From assembly GCA_937863415.1 (NCBI GenBank), contig CALMFC010000005.1:248001-312000 (forward strand): 64,000 nt of DNA. Reading direction: 5' to 3'. The notes below the pieces were generated by a model. It was not told the DNA's origin. It saw nothing but the letters and a program-made list of their open reading frames with translations, and did not search any database. Both the position numbers and the translations under genes were made by a program. Below, piece after piece: positions 1,082 through 4,738 of this stretch (its first letter is position 1; every line of letters begins with the position of its first letter). This DNA is from an uncultured bacterium (GTDB lineage Bacteria > Patescibacteriota > Saccharimonadia > Saccharimonadales > Saccharimonadaceae).

Positions 1082-3493
1082 ATGAACGGAATCCATGTAG
1101 TAAAAAGAGACGGAACACGTGAGCCATTTGACGCAAACAAGATCAACTTGGCGCTCGTGAAAGCGACCGAAGGTTTACCAGATCAAATTAGTAAAGTCGT
1201 ACAGGTAGCAACAGAGTTGCAACTGACATTATTCGATGGCATTACGTCTGAACAATTAGACGAAGCTGTCATTCACACTGCGCTTCAAAACGTCAAAGAC
1301 GACCCTGATTTTGATACTATTGCCGCCAGATTGCTACTCAAGAATATTTACAAAAATATCTTGGGTGATTATTCATCAGAAGCTGAACTGAAAAAACTAC
1401 ATGAACAATTTTTCCCTAAATTTTTGGCGAAAGGTATTGCCGACGGGTTACTTGATAAGCGGATGAATGACAAGGTTTTTGATATCAAGCGTATTGCGAA
1501 AGCGCTCGATCCATCGCGCGATAATTTATCCAAGTACCTAGGTGTAATAACCAACAAAAACCGTTATGCCCTGCGTGATTCTTCGGGAAAACCAATCGAA
1601 GTTCCGCAGTTTACGCATATGCGTATCGCTATGGGCCTTAGCTTTAAAGAAAAAGATCCAACCGCAGCCGCAATTGATTTTTACAAACACATGAGTGCAC
1701 TTCATTATGTACCTGGTGGCTCGACAAGGGTTAATGCTGGCGGTTCGTTCCCCCAGCTATCTAACTGTTTCTTGATCGAAGTTCAAGATGACATGGAATC
1801 AATCGCCAAAAGCATTCGTGACGTGATGTGGATAGCCAAAGGTACTGGCGGGATTGGAATTAGCATGAACAAACTCCGCGCTGCTGGTTCACCAGTTAAA
1901 ACCACTAATACTGAATCGACTGGCCCAATACCGTTTATGAAGATGATTGATACAGCGCTGTTTGCTGTTAGCCGCAAAGGCAAGAAAGCTGGTGCCGCTG
2001 CACTATACATGGAAAACTGGCACATGAATTTCCCGCAGTTTTTGGATTTACGCCAGAACTCGGGTGACCCATATTATCGTACGCGTTTTGCTAACACGGC
2101 AGCTTTCATTAGCGATGAATTTATGAAACGAGTTCAGGCAGATGACGATTGGTATCTGTTTGATCCAGCCGAAGTCGAAGATTTGCCAGAATTATACGGC
2201 ACCGAATTTTCTAAACGCTACAAAGAGTACATCAAAATGGCCGAAGCGGGTAAGATGCGTGATTTTGTCAAAATGCCAGCTCGTCAACAGTTCAAAGACA
2301 TCCTGGTTCAACTTCAGGCCTCGGCCCATCCTTGGATTACATGGAAAGATACAATTAATGTCCGGGCGCTAAATAACAACACGTCGACCATACATTTATC
2401 TAACCTTTGCACCGAGATTACTTTGCCACAGGATAAAGATAACACAGCGGTATGTAACCTAGTAAGTATAAATTTGTCAGCCTTTTTGAACCCTGATAAG
2501 ACTTGGGACTGGGACCGTTTGGCCGCCGCCACTCGTTCGGCCGTTCGCCAACTTGATAATCTGTGCGACATTACCGAAACTCCCGTGCCAGAAGCTATGC
2601 ACTCTAATTTGCAAAACCGCGCACTCGGCCTGGGGCTAATGGGCTTTACAGATATTGTTGAGAAACTAGGCTTTAGCTATGAATCCGAAGAATCATACGA
2701 CACGATGGATCAACTAGCTGAGTTTATAAGTTATCATGCAATCGATGAATCGGCTGATTTAGCGCAAAAACTTGGTAGTTACCCGACATTCAAGGGCAGC
2801 GGTTGGAGTAAGGGAATCTTGCCAATCGATACGCTTGATTTGTTAGCGACTGATCGCAAGGTAAAAGTTGAAGTTAACCGCAAGACGCGACTAGACTGGG
2901 ACAAGTTACGAATCAAGGTCAAAAAAGGTATGCGTAACGCGACACTAATGGCAATTGCACCAACTGCAAACATTGCTCATATTGCCGGCACAACACCTGG
3001 CGTTGATCCACAATTTGCTCAGATTTTTAGTCGATCGACCTTAAACGGCAAGTTTTTGGAAGTAAACACCAACATGGTCAAGGACCTAAAAGAGCTTGGT
3101 ATTTGGGATGACGTAAAAAGTGATGTGCTGAGGTATCAAGGTGACCTTACAAACATTGAAGCTATTCCGCAATCAATCAAAGACGTATATAAAACTAGCT
3201 TCCAACTAAGTCCAACGGCCTTTATCGAAGTTGCTGCAAGGGCTCAAAAATGGGTAGACCAGGCGATTTCACGCAACATGTATCTAGAGACTCGTGACAT
3301 TGACGAAATGGTAGATATATATAGCACCGCCTGGAAACGAGGCCTTAAGACCACCTATTACCTACACGTTAAACCACGTCATCAAGCTGAACAAAGCACG
3401 ATTAAAGTCAACAAAGCCGAAGATTCAAAAGTTGGTGATGGGCCGCGCAAGACCGGATTTGGATTTGCTAAAAAGCAAGGAGTGGGCGTATGA
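1082..3493 (+). CDS. nrdA: Class I ribonucleoside-diphosphate reductase, large (alpha) subunit
   Basis: Reduces ribonucleoside diphosphates to deoxy forms with the radical supplied by NrdB. The 803-residue protein has an N-terminal ATP-cone (about 1-95), then the ten-stranded barrel. Catalytic residues are visible: C229 (SNCF), N441-C443-E445 (SNLCTE), C458 (AVCNL) and the radical-transfer tyrosines Y759-Y760 (TTYYLH). The protein ends at GFAKKQGVGV without the usual C-terminal cysteine pair that re-reduces the active site; that pair is found in the small downstream ORF at 3558. The start follows AGGTAGGGG. First gene of nrdA - tail ORF - nrdB. Confidence 0.96.
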   Translation: MNGIHVVKRDGTREPFDANKINLALVKATEGLPDQISKVVQVATELQLTLFDGITSEQLDEAVIHTALQNVKDDPDFDTIAARLLLKNIYKNILGDYSSEAELKKLHEQFFPKFLAKGIADGLLDKRMNDKVFDIKRIAKALDPSRDNLSKYLGVITNKNRYALRDSSGKPIEVPQFTHMRIAMGLSFKEKDPTAAAIDFYKHMSALHYVPGGSTRVNAGGSFPQLSNCFLIEVQDDMESIAKSIRDVMWIAKGTGGIGISMNKLRAAGSPVKTTNTESTGPIPFMKMIDTALFAVSRKGKKAGAAALYMENWHMNFPQFLDLRQNSGDPYYRTRFANTAAFISDEFMKRVQADDDWYLFDPAEVEDLPELYGTEFSKRYKEYIKMAEAGKMRDFVKMPARQQFKDILVQLQASAHPWITWKDTINVRALNNNTSTIHLSNLCTEITLPQDKDNTAVCNLVSINLSAFLNPDKTWDWDRLAAATRSAVRQLDNLCDITETPVPEAMHSNLQNRALGLGLMGFTDIVEKLGFSYESEESYDTMDQLAEFISYHAIDESADLAQKLGSYPTFKGSGWSKGILPIDTLDLLATDRKVKVEVNRKTRLDWDKLRIKVKKGMRNATLMAIAPTANIAHIAGTTPGVDPQFAQIFSRSTLNGKFLEVNTNMVKDLKELGIWDDVKSDVLRYQGDLTNIEAIPQSIKDVYKTSFQLSPTAFIEVAARAQKWVDQAISRNMYLETRDIDEMVDIYSTAWKRGLKTTYYLHVKPRHQAEQSTIKVNKAEDSKVGDGPRKTGFGFAKKQGVGV

Positions 3494-3557
3494 GCGACGG
3501 AATAGATAATTAACCAGACACCAACCAAAATAAAAGTTAGTAAATAGGGGACAAGAA

Positions 3558-3731
3558 ATGAACGCAACAACAATCATAAACGACGATATGACACTAGAAG
3601 AGAAATTAGCTGCAATTGACGCAGCCATGGCTAATGCGCAGGCTCAGGCAGACGAAGATGCGGCGGCCAGTGGCGGATTCGCTGCACCACTTGATCCAGC
3701 CGATTTAACAATGTGTGAAGGTTGCCAGTAG
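3558..3731 (+). CDS. Detached C-terminal redox tail of ribonucleotide reductase (57 aa)
   Basis: A 57-residue acidic, Ala-rich peptide ending in LTMCEGCQ. A C-terminal CxxC of this kind is what NrdA/NrdJ proteins use as the swinging arm that passes reducing equivalents from thioredoxin to the active-site cysteines, and NrdA here lacks it. The ORF sits 64 nt after nrdA in another frame, has its own GGGG ribosome site (AGGGGACAAGAA before ATG), and its TAG overlaps the AGGAGG of nrdB, so translation is probably coupled. Stops in the gap make a simple sequencing frameshift unlikely. A split tail has precedent in Pseudomonas NrdJa/NrdJb. The function is inferred from the motif and position only. 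Confidence 0.75.
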   Translation: MNATTIINDDMTLEEKLAAIDAAMANAQAQADEDAAASGGFAAPLDPADLTMCEGCQ

Positions 3732-3739
3732 GAGGAATT

Positions 3740-4738
3740 ATGTCAGGAATTTTAGGAACCGGCATCCAGGACGGATTGCTTTTAAAACCAGTCAAATATC
3801 AATGGGCGATGGATTTATACGACCAAGCTGTTGCTAATACTTGGTTTCCAAACGAGATTCAGTTAGGTCAAGACTTGGCCGACTGGAAGAAAATGACCGA
3901 TGAAGAGCGTCATGCGATTACGTTCCTAATGAGTTATTTCAACCCTAATGAGCTACTTGTCAACAAGGCACTAGCATTCGGTGTTTATCCGTATGTTAAC
4001 GCAGCCGAGTGTCACTTGTACCTAGCAAAACAAATGTGGGAAGAAGCAAATCACTGTATGTCGTTCGAATACGTGCTAGAGACTTTTCCGATTGATCGAA
4101 AACAGGCCTATGCGGCACACGTCGACACCCCATCGATGTCACGCAAAGAAGATTTCGAGACCAAATATATCAAGCGCATGACCGAAGAAACGCTAGACAT
4201 AACGACAACCGAAGGCAAAAAAGATTTTATTCGCAATTTAATTGCTTATAACATTATCCTTGAGGGCATATGGTTCTATAGCGGATTTATGGTGGCCTTG
4301 TCGTTTAGGCAACGTAACTTGCTACGTAATTTTGGCAGTTTAATCGATTGGATTGTACGCGACGAGTCGTTGCACCTAAAGTTCGGTATAAATTTGATTT
4401 TGACGGTCCTAGAAGAGAACGAAGATTTACAGACAGATGAATTTGCAGCTGAGATTAAGCAAATGATTCTTGATGGTGTCGAGATGGAAGAAGCATATAA
4501 CAAAGACCTACTTCCGAACGGAATTTTGGGATTAAATGCAGATTACATTAATCAATACGTCGAGTACCTAGCTGACAGGCGACTTGAAGAGCTTGGCTTT
4601 GACGCGCATTACAAAACTCAGAATCCAGCCAAATGGATGGCGACCGCCAACGACACGCTAGAACTAGTTAATTTTTTCGAAAGCACCAACACCAGTTACG
4701 AAGTAAACGCTGGGCCTAGTAAAAAGTCCGACTCATAA
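3740..4738 (+). CDS. nrdB: Ribonucleotide reductase small (beta) subunit, subclass Ic-like (Mn/Fe)
   Basis: Generates the oxidant for NrdA at a dimetal site. Ligands read as E71, E102, H105, E175, E209 and H212 (motifs FNPNELL, EEANH, ILEGIW, RDESLH). The residue normally carrying the tyrosyl radical, four after the first His, is F109. Glu in place of Asp as first ligand plus Phe in place of Tyr, with all spacings equal to those of Chlamydia trachomatis R2 (E89, E120, H123, F127, E193, E227, H230), points to the Mn(IV)/Fe(III) subclass Ic. Start chosen at ATG 3740, 9 nt after AGGAGG; the TTG at 3722 in the same frame lies upstream of this site. Length 332 aa is normal. Confidence 0.93.
   Translation: MSGILGTGIQDGLLLKPVKYQWAMDLYDQAVANTWFPNEIQLGQDLADWKKMTDEERHAITFLMSYFNPNELLVNKALAFGVYPYVNAAECHLYLAKQMWEEANHCMSFEYVLETFPIDRKQAYAAHVDTPSMSRKEDFETKYIKRMTEETLDITTTEGKKDFIRNLIAYNIILEGIWFYSGFMVALSFRQRNLLRNFGSLIDWIVRDESLHLKFGINLILTVLEENEDLQTDEFAAEIKQMILDGVEMEEAYNKDLLPNGILGLNADYINQYVEYLADRRLEELGFDAHYKTQNPAKWMATANDTLELVNFFESTNTSYEVNAGPSKKSDS

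Follow-up and report, generated by a model that had tools for sequence, protein, structure and literature searches.

A putative free-standing redox tail of class I ribonucleotide reductase, encoded apart from nrdA in bacteria and phages

A 57-residue peptide encoded between nrdA and nrdB in a genome of the Saccharimonadia class (847 kb, 99.99% complete) is very likely, judging from its sequence and relatives, the C-terminal redox arm of a class I ribonucleotide reductase, detached from NrdA, encoded by its own gene and acting in trans. The arm of the reductase is usually thought to need tethering. A natural free arm opens the long-standing question of the tail's route to the active site to direct test, since an isolated peptide can be supplied, withheld, labelled or exchanged. 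More broadly, a detached and diffusible arm is probably a recurrent feature of class I reductases, having arisen by at least three fissions, and one exploited by phages: hundreds of contigs carry a gene of 20 to 60 aa for the arm only, which would be a minimal metabolic gene taking over or boosting the host enzyme. Such arm-only genes would rank among the smallest known phage metabolic genes. In the literature that we searched, which was mostly open-access, we found no description of a free class I arm, although an earlier one is possible.

The tail gene and its neighbours

We analysed a 64-kb stretch of DNA, here called the window, in which nrdA, the 57-aa open reading frame (ORF) and nrdB follow one another. 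The features are as follows.

1082 to 3493, + strand: nrdA, class I ribonucleotide reductase large subunit, 803 aa (PF03477, PF00317, PF02867, NF005101)
3546 to 3551, + strand: Shine-Dalgarno sequence of the tail gene, AGGGGA, 6 nt before the ATG (from the sequence)
3558 to 3731, + strand: putative free-standing redox tail gene, 57 aa, MNATTIINDDMTLEEKLAAIDAAMANAQAQADEDAAASGGFAAPLDPADLTMCEGCQ (conserved in close relatives having this NrdA; under purifying selection)
3585 to 3629, + strand: DMTLEEKLAAIDAAM, predicted start of a helix (alignment, AlphaFold2 helix over the homologous region at pLDDT ~75, phage copies)
3690 to 3728, + strand: LDPADLTMCEGCQ, C-terminal end of the tail, with the dithiol pair C53 (3714-3716) and C56 (3723-3725)
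3730 to 3735, + strand: Shine-Dalgarno sequence of nrdB, AGGAGG, overlapping the tail stop codon TAG (3729-3731)
3740 to 4738, + strand: nrdB, radical-generating subunit, 332 aa (PF00268)

The ATP-cone, all-alpha and barrel domains of the window NrdA are all complete by Pfam match. Its full complement of cysteines is C229, C443 (in NLCTE), C458 and C495, and we take the first three to be the active-site set, equivalent to C225, C439 and C462 of E. coli NrdA. There is no cysteine in the last 308 residues, and the chain ends in ..RKTGFGFAKKQGVGV without a cysteine pair. Residue list and domain matches therefore agree with the original prediction that NrdA keeps its active-site residues but lacks the C-terminal pair. 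Also borne out were the coordinates of a short ORF ending in CxxC between the two subunit genes, its own ribosome site AGGGGA, and the overlap of its stop codon with the nrdB Shine-Dalgarno sequence.

The 57-aa tail is the single ORF in the window with an ending of the form DPx(1-6)CxxCx(0-2)stop, and in shuffled phage sequence (8.3 Mb) a stricter motif, ending in CxxC[QE], never arises. Searches of the peptide against Pfam, NCBIfam and PHROGs returned no curated family, only weak PHROG matches that fell mainly on the helix part, and a tail profile gave only chance matches to solved structures, mostly coiled-coil.

NrdB carries Phe at the usual position of the tyrosyl radical (EEANHCMSF, by residue inspection), its first ligand region contains Glu (NPNELL), and the solved structures nearest to it by sequence are 1syy, the best match, and 4d8f. 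Together these three features make a Chlamydia-like, class Ic metal cofactor likely.

Conservation, distribution and relocation

The tail is conserved as a protein and is under strong purifying selection. In close relatives the ORF has 70-91% identity, is accompanied by GGGG sites resembling its Shine-Dalgarno sequence, and, against the window sequence, has changed mostly at synonymous positions (pN 0.07-0.27 against pS 0.41-0.78), with dN/dS of ~0.03-0.15 for most relatives with measurable dS. Across an alignment of 15 divergent tails, D46, P47, C53 and C56 are invariant.

The original prediction had proposed searching Saccharibacteria genomes for such ORFs; when this was done, each complete NrdA of this type proved to be accompanied by a conserved short ORF ending in CxxC(Q/E). 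We surveyed 393 genomes of the Saccharimonadia class, counting NrdA of the ~800-residue type. Of these, 79 have NrdA and 79 have the tail: both are present in 78, NrdA alone in one, the tail alone in one and neither in 313. The two unpaired cases (G390, G384) sit at contig ends. The tail is lost together with NrdA; those genomes without this NrdA that were checked have a distant, longer reductase of ~790-980 aa, which is probably a class II NrdJ from its length and weak similarity.

The two genes also move apart. In 21 genomes the tail does not directly follow nrdA; nrdB, and sometimes one more gene, comes first, and the tail is found 1.1-2.7 kb downstream. Where a tail lies behind nrdB, is unlinked, or is found in phages without NrdA, the arm is encoded in trans. 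The NrdA of the same genome lacks a tail of its own, with the exception of G067, which has a fused tail and an unlinked free one. Additional copies occur as well: one genome (G330) has a further tail elsewhere, and another (G014) has a second copy directly behind groEL (L166:1440-1683), a gene also found near the tail on phage contig L177.

Comparison with the C-termini of fused NrdAs, a further check that had been proposed, revealed the same end motif, a LDPADLTMCEGCQ-type sequence being how fused NrdAs also terminate. Among fused NrdAs of the phylum, the closest (53-58% identity) have the ..HMKPRHTAEQST..VNK..GF.. end of the split NrdA, then a linker and then CPIDPQERLxCDSCQ. The DP..CxxC(Q/E) end, common to the free tail and the fused relatives (L199-L203, L286), indicates homology. 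Ordinary class I NrdA, as in E. coli, Patescibacteria G627 and G737 and Leekyejoonella, has the same barrel, but there the disordered tail is covalently attached; the fused tails of G627, G737 and Leekyejoonella have the DPxxxLxCxxCQ end in common with the free one.

The split extends beyond Saccharibacteria. Among the named genomes scanned, it occurs in ~30 Microbacteriaceae/Micrococcales, including Leifsonia, Clavibacter, Salinibacterium, Glaciihabitans, Cryobacterium, Humibacter and Microcella, and in Dictyobacter and another Ktedonobacteria genome, while Leekyejoonella antrihumi has its tail fused to NrdA. Most Microbacteriaceae tails are 21-40 aa long, and they often start on the nrdA stop codon. 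In G537 the tail lies behind nrdB, and its four closest relatives are fused. In f35 genomes the tail, of 32-37 aa, is unlinked to nrdA and stands beside unrelated genes. A tree of 121 NrdAs, built by a quick method, shows the fissions of G537, of the f35 genomes and of the large split clade as separate events, the nearest relatives of the first two having fused tails. The f35 tails read ..DWDKPMxCPIDPKELAECEACQ (L155-L164) and often lie near a gene for a 230-aa protein (..EEITQGLELMSRYPKKVTFFGSARF..).

Being very short, most of these genes have escaped annotation. Consequently, reductases of cultured Microbacteriaceae expressed without the tail should look inactive with physiological reductants.

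Proposed mechanism and alternatives

In the mechanism that we propose, each turnover would leave a disulfide between the NrdA active-site cysteines C229 and C458. The free peptide would dock on NrdA so that its MCEGCQ dithiol enters the active site, take over the disulfide and then leave or swing out, and the oxidised peptide would be re-reduced by a glutaredoxin-like protein. No PF00085 thioredoxin was detected in the window genome at E<=0.001 and two glutaredoxin-family proteins are present, which makes the latter the likely reductants.

AlphaFold2 was run on the NrdA and tail of G087 as one in-frame chain, with the stop read as Q. In the model the body is good (pTM 0.79), the junction and linker are disordered, a helix spans tail residues 13-37 (pLDDT ~75), and the tail end is again disordered, the last residues of the homologous tail falling below pLDDT 50. 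The tail combines the near-C-terminal CxxC (in the MCEGCQ end) and the disorder (pLDDT <50 in the homologous tail) expected of a class I redox tail. The Microbacteriaceae tails, at only 21-40 aa, lack the helix, suggesting that a docking helix is dispensable in some lineages and that activity probably resides in the final ~15 residues.

Precedents exist for a divided reductase. In P. aeruginosa NrdJab, described in 2015 as a unique split reductase in a free-living organism, a separate subunit performs thiol-disulfide exchange and both subunits are essential in vivo (PMC4520616); split class II reductases have also been described elsewhere (PMC9669993). The parallel with Pseudomonas drawn in the original prediction holds in that a catalytic subunit without C-terminal cysteines is served by a cysteine donor on a separate polypeptide (PMC4520616). 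It fails in that NrdJb is a larger domain and not a bare arm, whereas the separate class I part has 21-76 aa; moreover, NrdJa/NrdJb is a B12-dependent class II enzyme, unlike the ATP-cone class I NrdA with adjacent nrdB in the window. In Aeromonas phage Aeh1, NrdA is likewise divided between polypeptides, NrdA-a and NrdA-b, and phage reductase genes can be split or interrupted by introns or inteins (PMC3653736). There, however, it is the catalytic chain that is divided and the phage carries the reductase genes; here the arm alone is separate, and most phages have only the arm.

We considered whether programmed frameshifting or readthrough of the stop codon might nonetheless yield a single chain of NrdA and tail in the cell, as many Microbacteriaceae tail starts overlap the nrdA stop and the frame is open upstream in some. 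In the window, however, the tail ORF is read in frame +1 with respect to nrdA and several stop codons lie between the two, so that a simple frameshift cannot join them, and between species the relative frame is 0, +1 or +2, several having no overlap. Tails behind nrdB, as in the 21 genomes, cannot be products of frameshifting or readthrough, and for relocated copies generally this explanation is refuted by where they lie: beyond nrdB, at an unlinked site, or on a phage that has no nrdA; overall we regard it as very improbable. Still harder to credit is that nrdA broke recently and left the ORF behind as a remnant without function. Nothing beyond its small size speaks for this, and strong purifying selection together with conservation across families, classes and phyla refutes it. 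A somewhat better, though still improbable, alternative is that the peptide regulates or inhibits the reductase by Sml1-like docking, or acts as a thiol decoy, with another reductant recharging NrdA. Separate expression would suit a regulator, as might the location of some phage copies near lysis genes; against this, NrdA has no other cysteine pair through which to be recharged, peptide and fused tails have the same DP..CxxCQ end, the tail cysteines do not vary, and tail and NrdA disappear together.

Tail genes on phages and plasmids

The tail gene is also carried by mobile elements. Scanning IMG/VR with the Saccharibacteria tail identified 16 contigs with a free-standing tail of ~50-75 aa, and searching these contigs whole revealed neither a large nor a small reductase subunit. 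The DMTLEEKLAAIDAAM segment is common to the tails on Saccharibacteria-type contigs, whose neighbours include portal, terminase, primase and endolysin genes. One contig (L191) has a 30-aa tail of the f35 type. Another bears two adjacent tails, one Saccharibacteria-like and one Microbacteriaceae-like (L180:6001-6308). The bacterial hosts of Saccharibacteria are Actinobacteria.

With the Microbacteriaceae tail as query, 328 viral contigs matched. Among the best 80 of these 328, most tails are ORFs of 20-30 aa (length by nearest start), and 79 have no nearby NrdA. The exception, L365, has NrdA within 3 kb; NrdB is that close in one contig, L379. Whole-record searches of Microbacteriaceae-type contigs found NrdA in one of 50. 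As contigs may be fragments, absence of NrdA from most of them is weaker evidence than its absence from four complete tail-carrying phage genomes, including CN1A, CMP1 and phiPsal1. In L365 (3001-6070) the tail directly precedes NrdA, and ~0.9 kb interrupts the coding region of this NrdA; the open frame is 1136 aa, and the interruption is likely an intein.

The Microbacteriaceae query was also run against 50,697 named phage records. At E<=10 its only matches were in two Clavibacter phages, CN1A and CMP1, and in phiPsal1 of Pontimonas (L285, L293, L294), with complete, unannotated tail ORFs of 22-30 aa; the host genera of all three have split NrdA. A similar 26-aa ORF occurs in Pan2, a phage recorded as infecting Pseudanabaena. 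As a control, an E. coli-type tail query matched annotated NrdA genes in nearly all phages among the matches listed. The Patescibacteria fused tail matched no named phage, and no close NrdA relatives were found in viral contigs.

Most likely, phages and a plasmid of split-enzyme hosts carry the arm alone to supply extra arm and so raise dNTP output. Phage nrdH, glutaredoxin and thioredoxin genes likewise feed electrons to the reductase, but they encode folded redoxins that act upstream of the tail, whereas the present gene is the tail itself. The neighbourhood of some copies is not obviously that of a dNTP booster: the CMP1 and phiPsal1 tails lie near lysis genes, and some phage copies adjoin holin or endolysin genes and not replication genes. 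This location would suit an anti-host role, in which the phage copy competes with the host tail and locks or unbalances the enzyme. Phage tails, however, keep both cysteines and leave the host motif almost unchanged, so that we consider such a competitor unlikely and favour the booster.

All 19 plasmid matches to the tail are from Microbacteriaceae, plasmids of Clavibacter among them. On a Leifsonia plasmid, a 33-aa free tail lies near conjugation genes (L380:3971-4072) and is annotated, misleadingly, as ribonucleotide-diphosphate reductase subunit beta.
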